From positions 1-31,268 of IMG/VR virus record IMGVR_UViG_3300037189_001027: 31,268 bases of DNA; one strand, 5' to 3'. A model generated the notes under the pieces. The model ran no database searches, had not been told where the DNA came from, and saw only the letters and a list, made by a program, of their open reading frames with translations. Positions 2,216-30,986 of the stretch are shown in pieces. Position numbers and translations under genes: made by a program. Within the stretch, counting starts at the first letter, position 1. Each line of letters opens with the position of its first letter. The stretch comes from a virus.

Positions 2216-2995
2216 ATGAAACTGAATCTGGTCTGCGAAGCGAAACTCAGCCTACCCGGAAAAGCCGAGGAAAGCGGAAAGATTGAAGCTCGCGTAACCA
2301 CCTGGGGTGCCCGAGAGGGTGCCGACGGTCGCAAGTTCTTCTATAAGCCCGAGGGTTTTGCTACCTGGGCCGAGCAATTCGGCAAGGCAGGCAAGCCTCT
2401 GCCCATGTTCCTCAATCACATGAGCGACTCCATGCCTGTAGGCGAATGGACTAGCTTTGAGTTTGATGATGAGGGCATGAACGCCAACGGGCGTCTTTAC
2501 CTGAACACCACTGCCGGGTCTGACCTGTATCAGATTATGACGGAAAGCCCCAATATGTTTGGTGGTGTTTCTGTCGGTGCCTATGCAGATGAATATTGCA
2601 TGGTGAAGGAAGACGGGTCCATGTGCGACCAAGACGACATGGACGAAGGCTACTTTCAGATCACCAACGGTGGCCTGCGGGAAGTGTCCGTAGTGATGTA
2701 TCCGAATAACCCGATGGCAGAAGTCAAAAAGTTGGAGTTCTTCCGGCCTGACGGTTCTGCTGATCTCAAGGTTCTGGAGTCGGCTCTGCGTGAGGCAGGG
2801 TTATCTAGGAAAGATGCGGTCACTGCCGCGTCTACGTTCAAGCAAGTCCTGGAACAGCGTGACGTTGTGAAGGATGAGCCAACTGCGCCGCAGCAGAGTG
2901 AGTCTGACGCGGAAGTGACCACTGAGGCGGAAATTCTCCAGGCTCTTGAAGAGCGCGAGTTGCTCCGTGTCCTGTCCCAAAAACTGAAAGGTTGA
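2216..2995 (+). CDS. Prohead maturation protease, HK97 type (peptidase S78)
   Basis: A 259-residue serine protease expected to act inside the prohead, removing the scaffold-like delta domain of the capsid protein before expansion. The likely catalytic His is H68 in FLNHMSDSMPVGEW and the likely Ser is S119 in GGVSVGAYADE, both typical of the family. The C-terminal third is charged and helical, which may serve as an internal scaffold or targeting tail. AGGGG lies upstream of the ATG. Its stop overlaps the ribosome-binding region of the next gene, so protease and capsid protein are probably translated from one message. Confidence 0.92.
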   Translation: MKLNLVCEAKLSLPGKAEESGKIEARVTTWGAREGADGRKFFYKPEGFATWAEQFGKAGKPLPMFLNHMSDSMPVGEWTSFEFDDEGMNANGRLYLNTTAGSDLYQIMTESPNMFGGVSVGAYADEYCMVKEDGSMCDQDDMDEGYFQITNGGLREVSVVMYPNNPMAEVKKLEFFRPDGSADLKVLESALREAGLSRKDAVTAASTFKQVLEQRDVVKDEPTAPQQSESDAEVTTEAEILQALEERELLRVLSQKLKG

Positions 2996-2997
2996 AA

Positions 2998-4326
2998 ATG
3001 TCTACCGTGATCCTCGAAAAGCTGGACCAAATTGAAGCCCAGCAAACCGCCAAGATCGAATCCGCCGTTGAGTCGGTGAAGGCTGAAGTCAGCGAGAAGA
3101 TTGCTGCTCTGGAAGCCAAGGTTGCCAGCGTTCAAACGCCCGCGATCATCCGCCCGGTTGCCAAGTCTGTTCGCCAGGACGTTAACCGTCTGGCCCGCGA
3201 ACAACTGAAGAACATCGTCGGTGGCAAGAGCCAGTTCGAGCGTGAACTGAAGTTCTTTGCTGACGAATCTCAGTACGAGGCGTACCTGAAGGAAGCCAGC
3301 CAACTGACCGCTGGCGGCGACGGTAAGGGTGGCCGCACTGCCTATGACCCCGTGTTCGCTGCTCTGCGTTTGGCTAACCCGATGCGCGGTCTGTCGCGTA
3401 CCGTGGCTACCGATGGTTCTTCGTATCAGTTCCGCGTGAAGACCGGCGATGCTGGTCCGCAGTGGGGCTATGGCATTCAAAATAACGGTGCCGCTACCAC
3501 GGAAGACACCAGTATTTGGCAGCTTGTGCTAAAGGACATCAACGTGCAGTTCCCGATCCGCACTGCGGCTCTGGACGACATCGATGGTCTGGAAGCCAAC
3601 GTGGTTGACGACATGCTGGCCGAGTTCGCCCAGGCTGAAGCCCTGTCGATGATCCAGAACAACGACCAAAGCGGCACGGGCACCTCGGTGTCTACCGGTG
3701 GCGCTGACGGTCTGCGTGGCCTGGACCAGTACGCTGGCGCTAACGCTACCTACACGGGTGGTAAGGTCTCTACGGCATCGTTCGGCACCTCTGGCACGGG
3801 CTCTACCTCGGGTCTGCATAGTCTCGCTACCTACGACCAGTTGACCTCCAACGTCAACACCGTAGCTGCCAATTCCGTGACCTACAAGGACATGATCAAT
3901 TGGATTTACAGCCTGCCGCAGCAATACTGGACTCCGAATGCCAAGTTCATGTTGAACCCGGTGTTCCTGGCTGGCATTCGCGGCCTGACCGACACCAACG
4001 GCGCACCGATCTTCAATCGCAATGAAGGTCTGAGCGTTGACGGCATCGTGGGTCAGTTGCTGGGCTTTGACGTTATCGTCAACAAGTATGTGGACAACCC
4101 CAGCCAAGCCACCACCGGCACGGCAGGTACGAACAGCTACTACCCTGGCTTCTTCTGCGATTGGAGCCGTTTCCACACCATCGTGGACCGCCTGAGCATG
4201 GTGATGCGCCGCTACGATCAGACTGCTCCTGGCTTCATCACTTTCTACGGTGAGAAGCGTTTGGGTACGTCTGTGCGCGATCCTAACGCGGGGGTGCGTT
4301 ATCGCTCGACGGCCACCGCGACCTGA
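2998..4326 (+). CDS. Major capsid protein, HK97 fold, with N-terminal delta domain
   Basis: A 442-residue protein starting at ATG 2998. A TTG at 2992 is in frame but overlaps the protease stop and is less likely. Residues 1 to about 100 are charged and heptad-like (LEKLDQIEAQQTAKIESAV), as expected for a delta/scaffolding domain removed by the upstream protease. The shell-forming part begins near LTAGGDGKGGRTAYDPVF. It ends with TAPGFITFYGEKRLGTSVRD, a typical capsid C-terminal signature. Codon use is strongly biased toward C- and G-ending codons compared with neighbours, fitting very high expression. A rho-independent terminator follows directly. Confidence 0.95.
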   Translation: MSTVILEKLDQIEAQQTAKIESAVESVKAEVSEKIAALEAKVASVQTPAIIRPVAKSVRQDVNRLAREQLKNIVGGKSQFERELKFFADESQYEAYLKEASQLTAGGDGKGGRTAYDPVFAALRLANPMRGLSRTVATDGSSYQFRVKTGDAGPQWGYGIQNNGAATTEDTSIWQLVLKDINVQFPIRTAALDDIDGLEANVVDDMLAEFAQAEALSMIQNNDQSGTGTSVSTGGADGLRGLDQYAGANATYTGGKVSTASFGTSGTGSTSGLHSLATYDQLTSNVNTVAANSVTYKDMINWIYSLPQQYWTPNAKFMLNPVFLAGIRGLTDTNGAPIFNRNEGLSVDGIVGQLLGFDVIVNKYVDNPSQATTGTAGTNSYYPGFFCDWSRFHTIVDRLSMVMRRYDQTAPGFITFYGEKRLGTSVRDPNAGVRYRSTATAT

Positions 4327-4377: not shown

Positions 4378-5379
4378 ATGATCGAGAAAATCCTAGACGG
4401 AATCAAGCAATCTATCCATGAGGGTCGGCAAGTCAAGATTGATTTGTCGGAAGCATCGTCCCTAACGGGTTCCGGTCTGGGCAAAGGCGGTCGGACTGTT
4501 TTTGACGACTCGTTTGCAGCACTTCGCCAAGCAAACCCTTTCCGGTTGGGCGCTCGGCAGATTCCTGTAAGCGGGTCTGATGCTCTTTTTGTTGCCAAAA
4601 CTGGTAACGCAACGAATTCCACACCGTGGGGATATACGCCTGCCAACAACACCGGTAGCCCGAATATCGATACGGCAATCTGGCAACTCCCAGTTCGCGA
4701 CATCTCTGCCAGCTTTCCGGTTCGCTCCGCAGTCCTGTCTGATGTCAACGGACTTGAGGCGACTCTGGTAGAAGACCTGATGCTTGAGTTTGCTGCCCTT
4801 GAGGGCGCATCGATGGCAGTCAATAGCGACCAAGCAGGATCGACCACAACGGCCACAGGCGCGACATCTGGCCTGCGGGGCCTGGATATGTACCTTGACG
4901 GTGCTACGTCGGCCTACGGGACTTCTGGGACCGCTATCACCAATGGTATCCACACGATTGCTACGCAGACTGCAACAACTGCTGTTGCCTACGCTGACCT
5001 GACTGCTGCTGTTAGCAAGTTGCCTTCTCAGTATTGGGCACTGCCAGGAAATGCTTGGTACATCCGTCCCCCCACGATTCAGGCTCTGCGTGACCTGAAG
5101 GACTTGCAGGGTCTGCCGGTATTCCTCGAAATCGGTGATGAGGATGGTGCTGCTGTAGGGCGGATGTTTGGCTTCCCAGTGATTCCAAATCCGTATCTCA
5201 GCACTACCTACCCGATCTATCTGGCTAATTGGCCGCGCTTCCTGACCATCGGTGACACGATGGAAATGAACGTGCAAATGATGGAACAAACGGCACCCGG
5301 CTTTGTTACCATGTACGCAGAAAAGCGTGTGGTTTCATCCGTGCGCGATCCGTTTGCTGGAGTGCGAGTCAAGGTATGA
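4378..5379 (+). CDS. Second HK97-fold capsid protein, paralogue of the major capsid protein without the delta domain
   Basis: A 333-residue protein that aligns through its length with the shell domain of the preceding gene. Matched segments include LTGSGLGKGGRTVFDDSFAA against LTAGGDGKGGRTAYDPVFAA, DTAIWQLPVRDI against DTSIWQLVLKDI, GLRGLDMY against GLRGLDQY, and a shared TAPGF.T.Y.EKR...SVRDP.AGVR ending. Only about 33 residues precede the first block, against about 102 in the major protein, so the coiled delta domain is missing. An AAGGA site precedes the ATG. It may form pentamers or a special vertex (as T4 gp24 does beside gp23), assemble as a minor shell subunit, or be a diverging spare copy. 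Homology is clear; role is inference. Confidence 0.9.
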   Translation: MIEKILDGIKQSIHEGRQVKIDLSEASSLTGSGLGKGGRTVFDDSFAALRQANPFRLGARQIPVSGSDALFVAKTGNATNSTPWGYTPANNTGSPNIDTAIWQLPVRDISASFPVRSAVLSDVNGLEATLVEDLMLEFAALEGASMAVNSDQAGSTTTATGATSGLRGLDMYLDGATSAYGTSGTAITNGIHTIATQTATTAVAYADLTAAVSKLPSQYWALPGNAWYIRPPTIQALRDLKDLQGLPVFLEIGDEDGAAVGRMFGFPVIPNPYLSTTYPIYLANWPRFLTIGDTMEMNVQMMEQTAPGFVTMYAEKRVVSSVRDPFAGVRVKV

Positions 5380-16350: not shown

Positions 16351-20155
<3,805 letters not shown>

Positions 20156-20157
20156 GA

Positions 20158-23100
20158 ATGGCAACGAAATACTGGCGCGGTGGGGCCGGCACCTGGGATG
20201 CCACAACAGCCACAAACTGGTCCGACACTAGTGGCGGTGCTGGTGGCGCCATTGCGCCCTGTGCGTTGGATGATGTCATCTTTAACTCAGCGTCAAATGC
20301 CACTGCATACACGGTAACTATTGCTGCTGGGGCAGTATGTAGAAGTCTAAACATTGCTGGGCCTGCTGCGGGAAACGTCACGGTTGCTGGAACCGGAGCT
20401 TTTGGAATATTTGGCAGCTTAACTCTTGCGGCAACAGGTATTACTAGAACCTACACTGGAGCAATTACATTTAGATCAACCACAATTGGCAATACAATTA
20501 CAACTAATGGAATATCACTAGCGTCAGCAATTGTTTTTGATGGAGTTGGAGGCGCATGGACTCTTGGTTCTGCATTTACAACAAGTGGCAACTTTACTTT
20601 TAATAATGGAACATTTAGCACATCAAATTTTGCATTAAGTTTTAGCAGTTTTGTAGGAGCTACTGGAACAAAAACATTAAATCTTGGTTCAAGCACAGTA
20701 ACGGCGTCACAGATATCTAATATATCTGGGCTTACTTTAAACGCTGGAACTTCTACAATAAATATTACAAATTTAACCCCAACTTTAGGAGGCGCAGCGT
20801 TTTCGGGGGCTACATTTTATAATGTTGCATTTACAAATGCAAGCCCAGCTACTTCTATTGCAATTTACGGATCAAATACTTTTAATAATTTATCTTTTGT
20901 TACGACAACATTAGCTGGTTCGGTTGCAATATTTTTAACTGGAAATCAAACTATAAACGGCACGTTACAAATTTCTGGTTCTGGGGCAATTTCTAGATAT
21001 TTTCTTAGATCAGATATTTACGGCGTAACAAGAACAATAACATGCAACGCGATTTCTGCATTGACTGATATTGATTTCAGAGACATTACTGTTTTAGGCA
21101 CTTCATCTCCTTGGTCAGGCACAAGACTTGGCAATGGCTTAGGAAATACAAATATCACATTTAATGCTGGTGTAAATAAGTTTTGGAACCTTGCTGCCGG
21201 TGGGGCCTGGACTGCTGCAGCTTGGGCAACAACAAGCGGAGGAACTGCATCTGCACTTAACTTTCCTCTTCCTCAAGATACAGTAAATATTGTTGATACT
21301 GGTCTTAATTCAGGCGCAACAATATCTGCATTTAATAGCTTTGCCATAACTACTTTAAGTATTGGTTCTAGGACGTTGGCTTTTACATTAACAGGAACGA
21401 ACCCAGAAATACAAGGTAATGTTGTTTTGTGTTCAGCGATGACCGCAACGGGATTTAGTTTTAATGCAACAGGAAGAACTCAGCAGCTAATAACTACTGC
21501 AACAAGAACATTAGCTGCAATTGGAGTAATAAATATAGGAAATTCAGTTGTTTTTCAAGACAACGTAACTACTAGTGGATCTATTTCTGTATTTGCTGGA
21601 ACACTTGACACCAATGGCAAAACAGTATCATGCAATTCTCTTGCTGCAGGCGGAGGATATGATTTATTTACAAAAACATTTACTTTTGGCGCTAGTTCTA
21701 TTACTTGCGCAAATTTTGGTGGAAATGTTAATTTACCTGTTGTTATAAATGCAGGCACATCGACTATTACTTTAACTGCAGCAAATGCCAATTTGGGTTA
21801 TTTGGGTCAAACATTAACATTTAATAACGTCACATTTTCTACTGCCACAACATCTCCATCTATTTTTGCAACCAGTTCAACATTTAATAATTTAACTTTT
21901 ACTGCTTCAACTGCGTTAGGTGTGAATAGTATATTTTTATCTGGCAACGTAACAGTAACCGGAACTTTGGCTTTTGGTGGGGGCACTTCAGTTACGCAAA
22001 GATTAGGAGTTATTAGCGACACTATTGGGACAACAAGAACAATTAGCGCTGCAACGGTCACTGGACTTACTAACATTGACTTCAGAGATATTAATGCAAC
22101 TGGAGCCGCAAACTGGACTACAGGTACTAGACTTGGAGATTGTCAAGGCAATACTGGCATAACATTTCAGACAAAAACCGTGTATTGGAATTTAACTGGA
22201 GCGCAAAATTGGACAGCAACTGGTTGGGCGACAACAAGCGGAGGAACACCTGCTGTTAACAACTTTCCATTAGCTCAAGATCAAATAGTTTTTGACAATA
22301 CAGGTGCGGCAACAACTATAACTGTAAATGCGTTATATAACATAGGGTCTATTATTGCTGGCACAAGAACAACAGCATGGACTTTAGCGGGAACAATTGG
22401 ATTTAATATATATGGTAGTACTGTGACATACGGATCAGGTATTACTGCAAGTATTACCGGCACATATAATTTTTTATCAAATGGAACAACACAGACATTT
22501 ACAACTGCAGGCAAAACACTTAATCAAGTTATTTCAATACAAAAGCCAAGCGGGATATTTAATCATGGAGATGCGGCTACGTTTTCTGGCACAAACGGAG
22601 TAACCCTTTCCACTGGTAATTACACTTACAACACTCAAAATTTTAATATAACCGGCGTACATAGTATTGCTTCTACATTTGTTGGAACAATAAATTTTGG
22701 ATCAAGCACAATTACATGCGCTGGGTCTTTTAATAATTCATCAACAACTTGTACATTAAACGCTGGAACTTCCACAATAAATTTAACAGCTGCTTCAACT
22801 AAAACATTTACTGGTGGAGGGAAAACTTTTAATATTGTTTCTAACAATGGCGGCACAAACACAACCGCATTAACTATTGTTGGCAGCAATACATTTACTA
22901 CGCTACAAAATACCGCTAATCAAGACTTGACATTAACAAGCGGGACTACGCAAACTGTAACTAATTTTAATTACACTGGAGCAAGTGGAAACGTGGTTGA
23001 TATAAACACCACAACCCCAGGTTTGCAAGCTACTTTATTAAAAGCATCTGGCCCTTGGTATGCTGGAGCGAACTCTACTGATGGTGGAAATAACAGCGGA

Positions 23101-23208
23101 TGGACCTTCACTGCTGGAGGCTCTACCAACTTTGCGTACATCAAGGACATCATTGCAGCAGTCACTTCAGTAGCGCAAAATAGCAACTTCTTTTTCTTTT
23201 TGAGGTAG
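20158..23208 (+). CDS. Large repetitive beta-solenoid-like adhesin / second fibre protein
   Basis: A 1016-residue protein rich in Thr, Ser, Asn, Ala and Gly with alternating hydrophobic residues, expected to fold as a parallel beta solenoid. It contains three related modules about 335 residues apart, each opening with a Trp motif: YWRGGAGTWDATTATNWSD (residue 5), FWNLAAGGAWTAAAWAT (about 341) and YWNLTGAQNWTATGWAT (about 675). The second and third are preceded by IDFRDI and GTRLG.. motifs. The first 260 and last 120 bases resemble neighbouring genes, while the middle is clearly AT-rich. Probably a receptor-binding or surface-attachment protein; no catalytic motif is visible. Confidence 0.75.
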   Translation: MATKYWRGGAGTWDATTATNWSDTSGGAGGAIAPCALDDVIFNSASNATAYTVTIAAGAVCRSLNIAGPAAGNVTVAGTGAFGIFGSLTLAATGITRTYTGAITFRSTTIGNTITTNGISLASAIVFDGVGGAWTLGSAFTTSGNFTFNNGTFSTSNFALSFSSFVGATGTKTLNLGSSTVTASQISNISGLTLNAGTSTINITNLTPTLGGAAFSGATFYNVAFTNASPATSIAIYGSNTFNNLSFVTTTLAGSVAIFLTGNQTINGTLQISGSGAISRYFLRSDIYGVTRTITCNAISALTDIDFRDITVLGTSSPWSGTRLGNGLGNTNITFNAGVNKFWNLAAGGAWTAAAWATTSGGTASALNFPLPQDTVNIVDTGLNSGATISAFNSFAITTLSIGSRTLAFTLTGTNPEIQGNVVLCSAMTATGFSFNATGRTQQLITTATRTLAAIGVINIGNSVVFQDNVTTSGSISVFAGTLDTNGKTVSCNSLAAGGGYDLFTKTFTFGASSITCANFGGNVNLPVVINAGTSTITLTAANANLGYLGQTLTFNNVTFSTATTSPSIFATSSTFNNLTFTASTALGVNSIFLSGNVTVTGTLAFGGGTSVTQRLGVISDTIGTTRTISAATVTGLTNIDFRDINATGAANWTTGTRLGDCQGNTGITFQTKTVYWNLTGAQNWTATGWATTSGGTPAVNNFPLAQDQIVFDNTGAATTITVNALYNIGSIIAGTRTTAWTLAGTIGFNIYGSTVTYGSGITASITGTYNFLSNGTTQTFTTAGKTLNQVISIQKPSGIFNHGDAATFSGTNGVTLSTGNYTYNTQNFNITGVHSIASTFVGTINFGSSTITCAGSFNNSSTTCTLNAGTSTINLTAASTKTFTGGGKTFNIVSNNGGTNTTALTIVGSNTFTTLQNTANQDLTLTSGTTQTVTNFNYTGASGNVVDINTTTPGLQATLLKASGPWYAGANSTDGGNNSGWTFTAGGSTNFAYIKDIIAAVTSVAQNSNFFFFLR

Positions 23209-23209
23209 T

Positions 23210-23518
23210 ATGCAAGACCAAGATGTCCTAACGGTCAAACTCCAAGTCTTGCATGAAGACGTAGGGGAGATGAAGTCGGTTCTAAAGGACTTGACTGCTG
23301 CGATCACTAAGCTGGCCCTGATTGAAGAACGCCAGACTCAAGCGGCGGCGGCTCAAGAAAGAGCCTTTGGAGTCCTGGCAAAGCTAGAAGAACGTATTGC
23401 TACTTTAGAGGCTTATGTGCCTGCTAACAAACGCATGAATGTTTGGTTTGATCGTGCGCTTTGGAGTGCGATTGGCCTGCTCTGCATGTTCGTCGCTAAG
23501 AAGACGGGGCTTGTATGA
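23210..23518 (+). CDS. Holin-associated membrane protein, XhlA-like
   Basis: A 102-residue protein with an N-terminal coiled coil of about 70 residues (VLHEDVGEMKSVLKDLTAAI) and one C-terminal membrane segment near residues 83-98 (ALWSAIGLLCMFVA). This is the XhlA layout, found next to holins and lysozymes. It probably sits in the inner membrane with its coil in the cytoplasm and assists or times lysis. GAGG lies before the ATG, and its stop overlaps the holin start. Confidence 0.65.
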   Translation: MQDQDVLTVKLQVLHEDVGEMKSVLKDLTAAITKLALIEERQTQAAAAQERAFGVLAKLEERIATLEAYVPANKRMNVWFDRALWSAIGLLCMFVAKKTGLV

Positions 23519-23997
23519 TTGAAATTGTTGGCGGCGGCATCCTTGGGTCTATCTTTGGTGGACTATTTCGATTGGCCCCTGAAATCCTGAAGTTCCTAGA
23601 CAAGGGAAATGAACGCAAGCATGAACTTGCGATGTTCACGCTTCAGACTGATCTCGAAAAGGTCAAGGGCAACTTCCGAATGGAAGAGAAGTATGTGGAC
23701 TACTCAACTGAGCAACTGAAAGCTATTCAAGAGGCTTTCAAAGAGCAAACCACCACTGCGAAAGAAGCCGGATGGTTTGTTGCTGCGGTGTCTGCTTTGG
23801 TTCGACCTGGGATCACCTGGGCATTGTTTTTCATGTACGCGGCAGTCAAGGCAGCGGGCCTGACGATTGCCATCTCTTCTGGTGCTCCTTGGCAGGATGT
23901 CGTCCTTAAAGGATGGAACGGTGATGATTTCGCTATGCTCAATATGTGCATAACTTTCTGGTTTGTTGGAAGAAGCATTGAGAAATATCAAAAGTGA
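23515..23997 (+). CDS. Probable holin, GTA_holin_3TM-like
   Basis: A 160-residue membrane protein. An N-terminal Gly-rich hydrophobic segment (IVGGGILGSIFGGLFRLAPE) is followed by a charged helical stretch, then two membrane segments around residues 88-125 (GITWALFFMYAAVKAAGLTI) and 140-152 (LNMCITFWFVG). This layout matches the three-membrane-segment holins first named from gene transfer agents. Holins open the inner membrane so that lysozyme reaches the peptidoglycan. It sits between the XhlA-like gene and the lysozyme with 4-base overlaps on both sides. Confidence 0.75.
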   Translation: MIEIVGGGILGSIFGGLFRLAPEILKFLDKGNERKHELAMFTLQTDLEKVKGNFRMEEKYVDYSTEQLKAIQEAFKEQTTTAKEAGWFVAAVSALVRPGITWALFFMYAAVKAAGLTIAISSGAPWQDVVLKGWNGDDFAMLNMCITFWFVGRSIEKYQK

Positions 23998-24461
23998 AGG
24001 AAGCGATTGACTTAGCTACGGAAGGCTTAATCAAGCCTTTTGAGGGTTATCACAAGAAACTTTCTGATGGTGGATGTCTTGCATATCCTGACCCAGGAAC
24101 GAACGCAGAGCCCTGGACGATAGGTTGGGGCTCAACAGGTCCAGACATTCGTCCTGGGACCGTTTGGAGCCTTGAGGCGGCACAAGCAAGACTATCAGCA
24201 GAAGTGGCTCACTTTGCTGTTGGTGCGCTTAAACTTTCTCCGTCTCTTCGTAATGCAATGCCTCGCCAGTTCGCGGCTATCATTTCGTTTTGCTACAACT
24301 GTGGATTAGGCAACTACCGAATCAGCACTCTGAAGAAAAGAGTTGATGTTGGTGATTGGCCTGGAGCGCAGGAAGAGATACAAAAGTGGAACAAAGCAGC
24401 AGGCAGAGTTCTTCGCGGGCTTACGATTAGAAGACAAGCAGAGTCAAGATTTCTACGATAG
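23994..24461 (+). CDS. Endolysin, GH24 phage lysozyme
   Basis: A 155-residue lysozyme starting at GTG 23994, overlapping the holin stop. The GH24 catalytic arrangement is visible: E17 in LIKPFEGY, D33 in LAYPDPG and T42 in PWTIGWGSTG, with an 8-residue insertion after FEGY compared with short lysozymes. Later family landmarks are QFAAIISFCYNCGLGN and LRGLTIRRQAESRFL. It cleaves the glycan strands of peptidoglycan. No cleavable signal peptide or SAR membrane anchor is evident, so release should depend on the adjacent holin. Confidence 0.92.
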   Translation: MKEAIDLATEGLIKPFEGYHKKLSDGGCLAYPDPGTNAEPWTIGWGSTGPDIRPGTVWSLEAAQARLSAEVAHFAVGALKLSPSLRNAMPRQFAAIISFCYNCGLGNYRISTLKKRVDVGDWPGAQEEIQKWNKAAGRVLRGLTIRRQAESRFLR

Positions 24462-24469
24462 GACAAGAA

Positions 24470-26005
24470 ATGCCATTCAGCAGCAATAGCGGAAAAGACT
24501 TCATCAAATCACTTAACCTGCAAGCCAAGACAATCCTAGATGTCGGCGCGGGTAGTGGCACCTACAAAGACCTCCTGAATCTCAAAGGCAAGTGGACTGC
24601 TCTAGAGATTTGGGAGCCTTACGTTGACAAGTATTCTTTGCGAGACAAATACGAAGAAGTTATCGTCGGTGATGTCAGGTCAGTAAATTTTCAAAAGTAC
24701 GATGTCTGTTTCTTGGGTGATGTGCTTGAGCACATGACCGTTGAGGAAGCGGTTTCCGTAGTCAACAAAGCCAAACAGAACTGCACCACGGTCATCATCA
24801 GCATTCCTCTAGGTCACTACCCTCAAGACGAATACGACGGGAATCCTTACGAGAAGCATGTAGTCCCTGATTGGTCGCACCAGCAGGTTCTGGAGAACTT
24901 TGGCGAGCCATATCAGTTTCACATTGACAACGAGATCGGTGTCTACGTTTACAGGCGTCTGAAGATCGCTGTCTATGCCATCAGCAAGAACGAAGAGCAG
25001 TTCGTCCAGCGGTTCTGCGAGTCTGCTGCCCAGGCTGACCTGATCCTGATTGCCGACACCGGCTCGACAGATGGGACAGTCGAGACAGCCGAATTCTACG
25101 GAGCGGAAGTCCCGTCCATCTGCATCAGTCCGTGGCGTTTCGACAAAGCCCGAGATGCCGCCTTGGCGCTGATTCCGCGAGACTTTGATGTCTGCATCAG
25201 CTTGGACCTAGATGAGGTCATGGAGCCTGGGTGGCGCGAAGAGATCGAACGGGTCTGGAAGCACAACACAACCCGGCTTCGTTATAAGTTCGATTGGGGC
25301 CACAACATCCAGTTTTATTACGAGAAGATTCATCATCGTCACGGGTATCACTGGCACCACCCCGTGCATGAGTACCCGGTCCCTGATCAGCGGATCAAAG
25401 AGGTCTACGCTCAGACCGACAAGCTACTGGTCAGCCACCACCCCGATCCCACCAAAAGCCGGGGACAGTACCTCGACCTTCTCAGGATGGCCGTTAAGGA
25501 AGACCCGAGGTGCCCTAGAAACGCTTTCTACTTCTCTCGGGAGTTGACCTTCTACCGGCTCTGGGATGAGGCTCTGGAGGCTCTTAACGCTTACCTAGAG
25601 ATGCCAGAGGCTACTTGGCCTAATGAGCGTTGTTATGCGATGCGCCTGCTGGCTGACTGCTGGGAGGCTAAGAACGATCACTACCAAGCCCAACAGTGGG
25701 TCAGGAGGGCGGCGGCTGAAGCCCCATACACCAGGGAACCTTGGGTCCGCATGGCAGAACTAGCCTATACGCGAAAGGATTGGCAGGAGTGCTTCTATGC
25801 GGTGAATCAAGCACTTTCAATCAAAGACAAGGCACTTGTGTATACCTGCGACCCGTCCTGCTGGACAGAGAAACCTTATGACTTTGGTTCGATTGCTGCG
25901 TGGCATCTAGGCTACAAAGAGATTGCTGTCGATTGGTGCAAAAAAGCACTTGAGTTCAACCCTGCTGATGCTAGACTGCAATCCAATTTAGTCGCCATCT
26001 CCTGA
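24470..26005 (+). CDS. Three-domain protein: SAM methyltransferase, family 2 glycosyltransferase and TPR repeats
   Basis: A 511-residue protein with AGGA upstream of the ATG. Residues 20-160 form a class I SAM methyltransferase with motif I TILDVGAGSGTYKDLL and later VCFLGDVLEHMTVEEA. Residues about 165-330 form a GT-A glycosyltransferase with IAVYAISKNEEQF, IADTGSTDGTVETAEFYGAE and the metal-binding DLD in ISLDLDEVMEPGW. A HWHHPVHEYPV segment typical of this GT2 subgroup follows. Residues about 335-511 are helical TPR-like repeats (LWDEALEALNAYLEMPEA; IAVDWCKKALEFNPADARL). It may modify a fibre, capsid or host surface glycan. Target unknown; it is the last gene before the terminator. Confidence 0.85.
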   Translation: MPFSSNSGKDFIKSLNLQAKTILDVGAGSGTYKDLLNLKGKWTALEIWEPYVDKYSLRDKYEEVIVGDVRSVNFQKYDVCFLGDVLEHMTVEEAVSVVNKAKQNCTTVIISIPLGHYPQDEYDGNPYEKHVVPDWSHQQVLENFGEPYQFHIDNEIGVYVYRRLKIAVYAISKNEEQFVQRFCESAAQADLILIADTGSTDGTVETAEFYGAEVPSICISPWRFDKARDAALALIPRDFDVCISLDLDEVMEPGWREEIERVWKHNTTRLRYKFDWGHNIQFYYEKIHHRHGYHWHHPVHEYPVPDQRIKEVYAQTDKLLVSHHPDPTKSRGQYLDLLRMAVKEDPRCPRNAFYFSRELTFYRLWDEALEALNAYLEMPEATWPNERCYAMRLLADCWEAKNDHYQAQQWVRRAAAEAPYTREPWVRMAELAYTRKDWQECFYAVNQALSIKDKALVYTCDPSCWTEKPYDFGSIAAWHLGYKEIAVDWCKKALEFNPADARLQSNLVAIS

Positions 26006-26019
26006 AGGCTGCAAAGCCC

Positions 26020-26223
26020 TTAAAGCCTCTTCGGGGGCTTTTTTTTCGCCCACTCGGCCATGATGTACTTTTCTAGATACTCACGGCCACGTTTACCTCT
26101 AGCTTTTTCAATACTCTCAAGGTACGTTTTACGGTTGCCTTTTGGCATTGAAAGGACGAATCTGGCTTCACACTCTGCTCGGTGATGCTCTCTATCGTCG
26201 TAAACCTGTGCTGATTCGCGCAC
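26020..26223 (-). CDS. Small conserved-looking phage protein (AECEAR...RKTYLESIEKARG), unknown function
   Basis: A 67-residue basic protein with a GTG start at 26223, 5 bases after an excellent AGGAGG site that lies inside the upstream zinc-ribbon gene. The pattern HRAECEARFVLSMPKGNRKT and YLESIEKARGKRGREYLEK recalls a family of short phage proteins of unknown role (from memory, DUF7696-like). The frame is offset from the overlapping gene 26073-26291 and shares about 150 bases with it. It ends inside the convergent terminator. Confidence 0.65.
   Translation of the reverse strand: MRESAQVYDDREHHRAECEARFVLSMPKGNRKTYLESIEKARGKRGREYLEKYIMAEWAKKKPPKRL
26022..26046 (+). terminator. Rho-independent terminator at end of late operon
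   Basis: AAAGCCTC and GGGGCTTT form an 8-base-pair stem (one G-T wobble) closed by a TTCG tetraloop and followed by T residues through 26046. It lies 17 bases after the last rightward stop, between convergent operons. The last codons of the leftward gene ending at 26020 are encoded within it. Confidence 0.92.
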
Positions 26224-28063: not shown

Positions 28064-28453
28064 TCAAAAAGGTACGTCAGATTCATCATCCCAATCATCA
28101 TCGCGGGCGCCCTTCTTAGCTCCAGCGGTCTTCTCGGCTTTGCCCACAAACTCCAGGGCGTCAATCGTGCCGCGCATGTTGTGGTAGGTCTTGCCGTCTT
28201 TGCCTTCGTAGACCTCAATGTGGATGTCTCGCATGTCCACAAAGATCAGCGTCCCTTTGCCGAGAAACGGAGCGAGAGAGTCAGCCCGCTCACCAAACAA
28301 CGAGGCTTGAATCCACTGCGAAGGCTTCTTACCGTCACGATCCTTCTGACCGTAGTTGTAAGCCAGCACCAAGTTTGCCACAGTCACGCCGCTACGGGTA
28401 GCGCGAATCTCGGCATCCTTACCCAAACGACAATTTCCAATCAATCGCATCAT
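28064..28453 (-). CDS. ssb: Single-stranded DNA-binding protein
   Basis: A 129-residue SSB with an OB fold at residues 1-105 (MMRLIGNCRLGKDAEIRATR, VTVANLVLAYNYG, SQWIQASLFGERADSLAPFL, GTLIFVDMRDIHIEVYEGKD) and an acidic tail DDDWDDESDVPF, ending in the partner-binding Asp-x-Pro-Phe motif. It coats single-stranded DNA in replication and recombination and recruits partners through the tail. It overlaps the upstream HTH gene by 4 bases. Together with ERF and YqaJ it forms a recombination module. Confidence 0.93.
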   Translation of the reverse strand: MMRLIGNCRLGKDAEIRATRSGVTVANLVLAYNYGQKDRDGKKPSQWIQASLFGERADSLAPFLGKGTLIFVDMRDIHIEVYEGKDGKTYHNMRGTIDALEFVGKAEKTAGAKKGARDDDWDDESDVPF

Positions 28454-28647
28454 TCTTCCTTCAAGTGATATTCGGCAAAGTGCTTGCCATTACGCTGTTT
28501 CATAACTTGTTTGATGTCGTAGCCTGCTTTGCGTAGTTCATGGATACGCGCAGCAAGACGAAAACACCCAACTTTTTGCAGGGCATCCTGTGGCGTGACA
28601 GGCCCCTGACGTAGAAGTTCAACTATTTGATGGCACTGTGATTCCAT
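28450..28647 (-). CDS. Small helix-turn-helix phage protein
   Basis: A 65-residue protein of helix-turn-helix type: CHQIVELLRQGPVTPQDALQ, then CFRLAARIHELRKAGYDI. The 'LL..GP.T..DAL...G..RLAARI.ELR..GY' pattern is a common phage DNA-binding domain. The short C-terminal strand pair (KHFAEYHLKEE) would be the wing. GGAG precedes the ATG, which lies within the end of the exonuclease gene. A regulator or DNA-processing partner; target unknown. Confidence 0.8.
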   Translation of the reverse strand: MESQCHQIVELLRQGPVTPQDALQKVGCFRLAARIHELRKAGYDIKQVMKQRNGKHFAEYHLKEE

Positions 28648-29236
28648 TTAGTTTCTCCACAATCAAATCAACCTCAGTCAAAAACTGAGAGACTTCATTC
28701 TCAAGTTCTTTGATCTTCTGGGCATCAGTGTTTACCCTATAGATCGCCAACTGGAGGTGTTCTGGAAACCTGGGATCAAACGATACGAAGTCGCACCAAG
28801 GCCGACCCGTCACGGCCATCTGCCAGTACATCTGAGGCAGGTAGTCGGGGTCCGCTGATCCGCGAAGCAGGTTGTCTAGGTGGGTCGCTGAGTTAGGGCA
28901 CTTGATCTCAATCAGACCATCACCTGGGAATCCATCAGGAGAAGCACCAGACATCGCAATTATTGGGTGGTCAATAAACCCTACGTCTTGAATCAGTTGA
29001 CCAGTGCGGTTTTCGTATGCAAGTTTTGCATAAGGTTCATGGTCGATCCCATGCTGCATGGCCGCGTTGGTGAAGCCTTCCTTTTTGGACCCGGTAAGCC
29101 TTTCCAAAGCAAGCTCAACAGCGTAGTTCTTACGCGAGGCCGAGGCTCCGGTTTTGGTCTTAGCAACGATGTCTTTGATCCGCGAAGCAGTAGCTTTGCC
29201 TACCCTTTGCTGAAACCACTCAGGCGTCTGCTGCAT
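28619..29236 (-). CDS. YqaJ-type exonuclease (lambda Exo-like)
   Basis: A 205-residue nuclease starting at ATG 29236 behind AAGG. An upstream in-frame start at 29287 lies inside the preceding gene. The N terminus TPEWFQQRVGKATASRIKDI is the usual YqaJ opening. The PD-(D/E)xK site is D101 in SGASPDGFPGDG with E110 and K112 in IEIKCP, and QMYWQMAVTGRPWCDFVSF follows. It degrades one strand of double-stranded ends to make tails for the annealing protein encoded upstream (ERF, 30136-30678). Confidence 0.92.
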   Translation of the reverse strand: MQQTPEWFQQRVGKATASRIKDIVAKTKTGASASRKNYAVELALERLTGSKKEGFTNAAMQHGIDHEPYAKLAYENRTGQLIQDVGFIDHPIIAMSGASPDGFPGDGLIEIKCPNSATHLDNLLRGSADPDYLPQMYWQMAVTGRPWCDFVSFDPRFPEHLQLAIYRVNTDAQKIKELENEVSQFLTEVDLIVEKLNGITVPSNS

Positions 29237-29237
29237 T

Positions 29238-29891
29238 TTAATTAACCTTGTAATCTTTGAAAACAACACCTTTTGAAGCGTCTCCAACTTTGCAAGACTT
29301 CACCCAAATAGATTTTCCTGACGGGTGTTTCCTCCAATGTCCTCTGCGGTCATGCAATCTAGGACTTGCATGAGTACCTCCTTGATGTTCTTTTTTGATT
29401 TCTTTGGGCCCAATTTCTACAGTATGCCAATCAAACAAAATTGCAGGCTTGCCCTTTGCTTTTCTTTTGCGATTTATTAAACTATTTTGTGCAACTGGCT
29501 TATATGATCTTGAAACAGAATCTTGCAGCTTGATTAGTGAAACACATGCGGTTCTAAAGATAGGCTCTACGTCCTTTTTTTGCACATTGCCATGTGTTGT
29601 GTATTTAATTCCATCTTCTTCGCACAAATAAGCAAAAGGATAAATATAGTGTTTAGTATTTATCACTACTCCACTAACAGTTACGCTATCTTGACCTTGA
29701 ATAAGCCACAAAGAAAATGGTTCTCCGCTTTCATCTTTGCCAACAATCGCTGTTTTTTCATACGGCAATTTAGAAACAATATCCCAATTAACTCTTCCTC
29801 CAGGCCATTTATCTAATTTATCCACATCGAACCACATAAACATTTCAGCATTTGGGTGTAATGCCGCTGCTTTTTGAATCAAAGGTGTCAT
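29238..29891 (-). CDS. Unknown protein within recombination module, AT-rich
   Basis: A 217-residue protein I cannot assign to a characterised function. The N-terminal part is acidic with aromatic residues (MFMWFDVDKLDKWPGGRVNW), the middle is beta-rich (GQDSVTVSGVVINTKHYIYP), and the C-terminal 60 residues are basic and conserved-looking (HQGGTHASPRLHDRRGHWRK, then SIWVKSCKVGD). That tail resembles a segment at the end of several phage proteins. About 470 bases of the gene are visibly AT-richer than flanking genes. It ends 1 base before the exonuclease start codon. Confidence 0.75.
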   Translation of the reverse strand: MTPLIQKAAALHPNAEMFMWFDVDKLDKWPGGRVNWDIVSKLPYEKTAIVGKDESGEPFSLWLIQGQDSVTVSGVVINTKHYIYPFAYLCEEDGIKYTTHGNVQKKDVEPIFRTACVSLIKLQDSVSRSYKPVAQNSLINRKRKAKGKPAILFDWHTVEIGPKEIKKEHQGGTHASPRLHDRRGHWRKHPSGKSIWVKSCKVGDASKGVVFKDYKVN

Positions 29892-29900
29892 AGATATTCC

Positions 29901-30152
29901 TTACGCAATTTCGTCCTTGATTGCAATTTCCCGTACAACACCCCTCCACGGAAGGTTCTGTGCAAGGGTGGGGCCGAGGTTGACTCTCAATGCTGCTTCG
30001 CCTGGAGTCTCGGCACCTAGATACCAATGTTCTCCATCCCAGTAGGAAAATCTCAGTAAAGGTGCGCTTCCTTTCCATGTCTGAAACTTCCTCTCGTAGA
30101 CCCCGACTCGGAAAGGATCAATACCCTCAAACCACTCAGTTCTTGTTTGCAT
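29901..30152 (-). CDS. Small Trp-rich conserved phage protein, unknown function
   Basis: An 83-residue protein with PFRVGVYERKFQTW, LLRFSYWDGEHWYLGAETPG and LPWRGVVREIA. The sequence reads like the short phage family with 'W....P.R.GVY.R......YS.WDG..W......A......S..QN.PWRG'. Function unknown. It overlaps the end of the ERF gene by 17 bases and lies 9 bases before the next gene, consistent with one recombination operon. Confidence 0.75.
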   Translation of the reverse strand: MQTRTEWFEGIDPFRVGVYERKFQTWKGSAPLLRFSYWDGEHWYLGAETPGEAALRVNLGPTLAQNLPWRGVVREIAIKDEIA

Positions 30153-30678
30153 TCTTCAGTGACTGACTATGAATCGCCCAGAGCTTCTCTTTCATTGGGC
30201 CTACAGGAACGGCCTTAAAAGCCTTCTGGAGGGCTTCCAGGCCTTCAACTGCAGCTTCCCTTAGCCTGGGCAGGTTTGCTTCCTCAAAAGCCTTGTAGGC
30301 CTCATCCACTGCGGTCGCGTGACCATCGTCATCTTCGGGAGCGATACCACAGGCTGCCATCAGGGCATAGCGTCGAGCGTAGGTGAGCGCGGAGCCGTAA
30401 CCTTGCGGGTCTTTCTTGCTGGCAGGTACATGTAGCTTTCCTGCCGAAACCTGTTCACCAGACTCATGGATAAAAAGAGTTTCAATAACGATCCCGTCAT
30501 CACACTCATGTGATGTCTGCATCAAGAAGATGCCGTTGTTGTTGAGACCATCAATGACCGCTTCAATACAAGCCGCAAGGTCTGCGTACTTTGATTTGAA
30601 ATGCGGATTGGAAGCAGTCTTAAGTGCAGGCCCAAATGCTTTTTGAGCCTTCACCAATGCACAAGCAATGTTCTTCAT
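30136..30678 (-). CDS. erf: ERF-family single-strand annealing protein
   Basis: A 180-residue recombinase-type annealing protein. ERF landmarks are NPHFKSKYADLAACIEAV near residue 23, then FIHESGEQVSAG and the signature QGYGSALTYARRYALMAACG followed by IAPEDDDG. It anneals complementary single strands, working with the YqaJ exonuclease and SSB encoded downstream, and can circularise or recombine phage DNA. The C-terminal 55 residues are helical and variable. It overlaps the HTH/H-NS gene by 4 bases (ATGA). Confidence 0.93.
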   Translation of the reverse strand: MKNIACALVKAQKAFGPALKTASNPHFKSKYADLAACIEAVIDGLNNNGIFLMQTSHECDDGIVIETLFIHESGEQVSAGKLHVPASKKDPQGYGSALTYARRYALMAACGIAPEDDDGHATAVDEAYKAFEEANLPRLREAAVEGLEALQKAFKAVPVGPMKEKLWAIHSQSLKNANKN

Positions 30679-30986
30679 ACCTTGAATTCATCAATAGAAC
30701 GGCCATTGGAAATGTGAGTCTTCAGCCACTTAGCCATAATGCCGCGACCAGACCAAGTGTTGTCGCCGTCACGGTACTTCACTGCAACAGGCTTGCGCTC
30801 GCCCTTGACTTTGACCTTGGGTTGCTTTTTGGGCTCTTCCCAGGTTGAGACATATTCCTTGTCCCAGAAGACCATTTTGGTGTCAGTCTGAACTGGAGCA
30901 GGGAACTGACCCAGTTTCATGTACTTGTTAACCTTGCCGCGAGTAATTCCCAGCAAAGCGCAAACACCATTGATCGACAAAAACAT
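30675..30986 (-). CDS. HTH protein fused to an H-NS-type C-terminal DNA-binding domain
   Basis: A 103-residue protein with AAGGA 8 bases before the ATG. Residues 5-50 form an AlpA/MerR-like helix-turn-helix (INGVCALLGITRGKVNKYMK, then FWDKEYVSTW). Residues 51-66 are a Lys/Pro linker. Residues 67-103 match the C-terminal DNA-binding domain of betaproteobacterial H-NS proteins (VAVKYRDGDNTWSGRG, then KWLKTHISNGRSIDEF). The usual minor-groove R-G-R core is R81-G82-I83 here, so one Arg is missing. The H-NS oligomerisation region is absent. Probably an operon regulator, perhaps autoregulatory through repeats just upstream. Confidence 0.82.
   Translation of the reverse strand: MFLSINGVCALLGITRGKVNKYMKLGQFPAPVQTDTKMVFWDKEYVSTWEEPKKQPKVKVKGERKPVAVKYRDGDNTWSGRGIMAKWLKTHISNGRSIDEFKV

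Follow-up and report, generated by a model that had tools for sequence, protein, structure and literature searches.

The late operon in a DNA stretch of 31,268 nucleotides from an uncultured environmental phage (IMG/VR record IMGVR_UViG_3300037189_001027, in the following simply the window) ends with a gene that encodes a methyltransferase (MT), a glycosyltransferase (GT) and a TPR superhelix in one polypeptide. With about even confidence, we read this protein as a peptide or protein GT of the SunS family that has acquired an MT and modifies a tail or fibre protein of the phage. In this mechanism the TPR superhelix would capture a peptide segment of the acceptor, the GT2 domain would move a sugar from a host nucleotide-sugar onto a Ser, Thr or Cys side chain, after which the MT at the N-terminus would O-methylate the attached sugar. 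The acceptor would most likely be a tail or fibre protein from the same late operon, and the virion would end up bearing short, methyl-capped glycans. We infer catalysis, donor, acceptor and sugar methylation from the comparisons described here. The gene is composed as follows.

24470 to 26005, plus strand: fused methyltransferase-GT2-TPR gene, an intact open reading frame of 511 aa plus stop
24470 to 24955, plus strand: N-terminal class I SAM methyltransferase domain, residues 1-162 (Methyltransf_11, AF2 model)
24539 to 24559, plus strand: SAM-binding motif I DVGAGSG, residues 24-30 (all 32 members of the MT family have D24, G26 and G30)
24956 to 25459, plus strand: GT2 domain of GT-A fold, about residues 163-330 (Glycos_transf_2; SunS and ThuS are the best structures)
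25055 to 25075, plus strand: DTGSTDG motif, residues 196-202 (invariant residues in fused homologues)
25205 to 25213, plus strand: DXD motif DLD, residues 246-248 (D246 and D248 invariant)
25460 to 26002, plus strand: TPR superhelix, residues 331-511, the proposed acceptor-binding part (all-helical in the model)

A sequence-only reading had proposed three domains with intact key motifs within 511 residues, and this description holds by Pfam, by the model and by motif conservation. Methyltransf_11 (residues 23-96, E 2.7e-5) and Glycos_transf_2 (residues 171-266, E 7.3e-6) both pass the Pfam cut-off, and for the TPR part sequence alone gives weak matches (TPR_2 0.012, TPR_P4H 0.014). The structure prediction which that reading had suggested gave a confident model of the whole protein (AlphaFold with 49 homologues, mean pLDDT 94, pTM 0.84), in which residues 334-510 form an all-helical superhelix that is clear despite the weak sequence match. 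In structure comparison, TPR structures including O-GlcNAc transferase and designed TPR proteins match residues 297-511. The modelled protein combines a GT-A fold carrying the DXD motif with a SunS-like, TPR-type C-terminal domain. A likeness of the TPR part to the prolyl-4-hydroxylase substrate-binding domain PF23558 was rejected, as its E value of 0.014 (0.0021 in locus L109) lies below the cut-off and is ordinary for TPRs. Among 22 fused homologues D24, G26, G28 and G30 of MT motif I are invariant, as are D196, T197, G198, S199, D201, D246 and D248 of the GT motifs. Between the window and its relative L001 (96-97% identical) dN/dS amounts to 0.042 for the MT, 0.011 for the GT and 0.029 for the TPR part. 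The fused gene is thus under strong purifying selection, and all three domains appear to be in use.

In the case of the GT-TPR half, the nearest characterised relative by both profile and fold is SunS, which makes a GT acting on proteins or peptides the most likely reading of the enzyme. Firstly, PHROG 13126 matches residues 165-509 at 2.1e-97 (profile positions 2-353 of 394, TPR half included), and SunS, taken from the SPbeta genome record, matches the same PHROG at 3.3e-105. Secondly, when the SunS sequence alone was searched with a profile built from the environmental phage family, it was detected at 3.7e-11; the alignment is collinear over NE, STD, W..F..AR, DxD, H...HE and REL, with DSYSTDD of SunS aligned to DTGSTDG and DAD to DLD. 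Thirdly, SunS and ThuS are the best solved structures (Foldseek 2.5e-16; Z 22.4, 21.6 and 20.7, the first two for SunS). SunS glucosylates a Cys of sublancin, and ThuS glycosylates peptides through S as well as O (PMC6405829). The phage enzyme shares with them the GT2 domain followed by a TPR-like helical half, the PHROG and the motif order; SunS, in contrast, is without a methyltransferase, is 16% identical to the phage enzyme and shares the SPbeta locus with the precursor, transporter and Bdb genes of a bacteriocin cluster. Altogether these comparisons speak for glycosylation of peptides or proteins rather than of LPS or DNA, a shared fold or family not in itself establishing the reaction. 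The simplest reading of the TPR part is that it may bind the acceptor.

Closer relatives are known from other phages. Proteins of jumbo phages PaBG and Lu11 and of Erwinia and Dickeya phages, placed in PHROG 13126 under the annotation 'beta-1,4-glycosyltransferase', are 27-36% identical over the GT-TPR region and match only this half of the query. A0A6J5ND39 from an uncultured Caudovirales phage (790 aa, in BFVD) shows 55% identity in a structural alignment of 519 columns; it is annotated as a DXD glycosyltransferase, and its greater length probably reflects an additional GT domain like that of L109.

Membership in the SunS family could also point to a glycocin (bacteriocin) cluster, a reading that is largely refuted by the gene surroundings. 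A conserved small precursor is absent near the gene in 45 loci, and a Gly-Cys-Gly-Gly/Ser peptide is absent beside it, the sole GCGS match in the window lying far off on the other strand. Unlike at the SPbeta locus, no adjacent transporter or thiol oxidoreductase was seen, the neighbours being tail and lysis genes.

Other matches of the GT-A half bear on two further alternatives. Its resemblance to the fucosyltransferase WrtF (Z about 18) and to TarS (Z 16) would fit an enzyme that places a methylated terminal sugar on LPS, capsule or teichoic acid of the host surface and so keeps progeny or competitors from re-adsorbing; such a role has been ascribed to fibre-adjacent GTs of pelagimyophages (PMC7029224). 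We consider this unlikely, as SunS and ThuS score clearly higher and have the TPR half in common with the phage enzyme. Moreover, the protein has no membrane segment, all DSSP helices of the model belonging to the three domains, and expression from the operon's last gene, next to the endolysin, would leave little time for surface remodelling. That a host protein such as flagellin or pilin is glycosylated instead of a virion protein is, in our estimate, distinctly unlikely. The best PDB sequence match is indeed a chain of GmaR, the flagellin O-GlcNAc transferase (E 4.5e-4), but this similarity is limited to the GT2 core (residues 166-252), and the genes occur with tail-fibre and lysis modules across many contigs.

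Regarding the MT domain, motif I and the Rossmann fold mark it as a class I SAM-dependent methyltransferase. Modelled alone, it reaches a pLDDT of 95.6 (AF2) and matches class I methyltransferase structures at Z 15-17, and 12 alignment columns are invariant across the 32 members of its family. The structural matches fit a sugar O-methyltransferase, a small-molecule O-methyltransferase and a protein N-terminal methyltransferase alike and hence do not indicate the acceptor; EvdMO1 with D-fucose is one of many tied matches. The best-scoring ones include human and yeast N-terminal protein methyltransferases (Z 15.6-17.2), which would suit methylation of the acceptor protein, for example at its N-terminus. 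O-methyltransferases and unrelated enzymes tie with them within about 1-2 Z units, however, and the genomic linkage of the MT family is to glycosyltransferases, which makes methylation of the protein improbable.

This linkage takes several forms. In L109 the MT is fused to a GT32-like domain that is followed by GT2-TPR. Family members in L110 and L112 adjoin GT4/GT9-type genes, and the MT relatives of L110, L112 and L115 as a set stand beside such genes or a Stealth-type protein. In mycobacteriophage Phrappuccino the family member gp145 comes after the GT-cluster genes gp142-144, in prophiGD91-2 gp78 lies among the GT-cluster genes gp73-75 and gp80, and in DSL-LC01 a member is found near GT and UDP-galactopyranose mutase genes. 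Family support was lacking for the C-terminal part of the L110 fusion, for GT-like neighbours in L113 and L117 and for the L104 context. The association is strong but not universal. It is this fusion to or placement beside GTs, not the fold, which suggests that the MT methylates a sugar or glycan. Positions 6001-9359 of L109 hold a 744-aa MT-GT32-like-GT2-TPR protein with a second GT2-TPR gene directly after it.

To place the enzyme within the late operon, the following features are relevant.

16830 to 19949, plus strand: collagen-like tail fibre with GPT repeats, a candidate acceptor (PF01391 E 5.3e-60, tail-fibre PHROGs)
20158 to 23208, plus strand: Thr-rich adhesin-like protein of 1016 aa, a candidate acceptor by position only
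23515 to 23997, plus strand: small lysis/tail-end protein (PHROG 6637 match)
23994 to 24461, plus strand: endolysin (phage lysozyme) immediately upstream of the fused gene (PF00959 E 1.3e-27)
26022 to 26041, plus strand: intrinsic-terminator-like hairpin with T run, closing the late operon

The fused gene starts 8 bp past the endolysin reading frame and ends 17 bases before the hairpin, in agreement with the initial placement of the gene after the lysis genes at the end of the late operon. Among homologous loci, the gene preceding the GT has its orientation in 43 of 46 cases, and the gap between the two is mostly no more than a few tens of bases; these neighbours come from simple ORF picking, and some may be miscalled. 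Where neighbours were recognised, they are mainly proteins of tail-fibre assembly, tail fibres, Gly-rich/laminin-G-type (LamG) proteins, collagen-like proteins and lysozyme. Linkage of homologues to unrelated contexts, which would have spoken against decoration of virion proteins, was thus not what we found. By association only, such neighbours favour a virion target over an early role in host takeover.

The same neighbourhood bears on modification of the phage DNA, by glycosylation or methylation of bases, against restriction. A DNA-protecting role has been proposed for phage GTs of freshwater actinophages (PMC10202952). For the present enzyme such a role is very unlikely, given its late, tail- and lysis-linked position and its SunS fold with a proposed peptide-binding TPR; base-modification genes were not recognised among the neighbours examined.

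Outside the late tail and lysis genes, the window carries an early module of SSB, YqaJ-type recombinase and ERF annealing protein (28064-30678, minus strand). Two tandem genes (2992-4326 and 4378-5379, plus strand) each have a match in the HK97-type major capsid family (PF05065, PHROG 10). A protein of 103 aa (30675-30986, minus strand) joins an AlpA-like HTH (PF05930, 2e-5) to an H-NS C-terminal DNA-binding domain (PF00816, 3.2e-10) and is possibly a phage regulator mimicking H-NS.

As for the acceptor within our preferred mechanism, the sequence-only reading had pointed to the Thr-rich collagen fibre or adhesin-like protein just upstream, and both do consist of Thr to 19%. The adhesin-like product has in addition 9% Ser and no family match, and is a candidate acceptor by its position only. 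For the collagen fibre, 130 G-X-Y triplets were counted in the window, with Thr at Y in 65%. Collagens of relatives without a detected GT are equally GPT-rich, so the fibre is not supported as the specific GT target. Collagen co-occurred with the GT in 7/10 records as compared to 5/18 records without it (p 0.05), a difference confounded by length, as records without a GT are often short contigs, and by near-copies among those with one. In contigs of 25 kb or more the figures were 5/7 and 2/6 (p 0.29), and in a smaller anchor-based set 3/8 and 2/6. Thus, of the original proposal that the enzyme decorates the fibre or adhesin, the protein or peptide GT is supported through the relation to SunS, and the collagen fibre as its specific substrate is not supported. 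What counts against our preferred mechanism is that the same TPR and GT residues are kept in phages whose fibres differ greatly, not a simple expectation if the acceptor were fibre-specific. Genes for 2OG-Fe(II) oxygenases (PF13759) adjoin the fused gene in a few phages (L002:7033-7632, L098:4455-5087 and L096:2428-3060); hydroxylation ahead of glycosylation by such neighbours is conceivable.

The GT-TPR unit occurs in IMG/VR both alone (mostly 350-370 aa) and fused to the MT (511-548 aa), the counts of the two forms not being frequencies because loci were retrieved by similarity to the fused query. Mapping the presence of the MT onto a tree of the GT part requires six changes, at least five of them forced by well supported branches, and the methyltransferase has accordingly been gained or lost at least five times. 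The sister pair formed by the window (fused) and L016 (unfused) illustrates this, with both genes placed between the endolysin and convergent SSB/YqaJ genes. As fused and stand-alone forms occupy the same genomic slots, the methyl step is dispensable; an MT relative was not detected in the loci of stand-alone forms. Between the window and L001 the GT is 97% identical, the preceding endolysin 43% and the protein before that 27%, implying that neighbours were exchanged around a conserved enzyme. No relatives in bacterial genomes were confirmed in one contig scan with short exact patterns only.

Glycosylation of virion proteins is experimentally known in few phages. In mycobacteriophages, phage-encoded GTs glycosylate the capsid or tail tube (Che8 and Rita; Freeman et al. 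2023, as cited in PMC11256854 and PMC10877033). The present system resembles theirs in its phage-encoded GT and through the occurrence of this MT family in GT clusters of other mycobacteriophages. More tentatively, a SunS-family enzyme may have been recruited from bacteriocin making to the decoration of virion tails, with one polypeptide in many phages attaching and methyl-capping the sugar and swapping of the MT diversifying tail glycans within a lineage.

The GT-TPR family as such is already catalogued, and similar long fusions are present, unannotated, in BFVD. What is new is that a large phage family linked to tail and lysis genes is explicitly connected with SunS, and that its proteins carry a methyltransferase domain in some phages and not in others, with repeated exchange between the two states. 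If our reading is true, many environmental phages would carry a compact SunS-type enzyme by their tail genes, with optional built-in methylation. Single-chain enzymes for glycosyl and methyl transfer would then be on offer, and the part of tail glycosylation in adsorption, stability and host defence could be put to the test.
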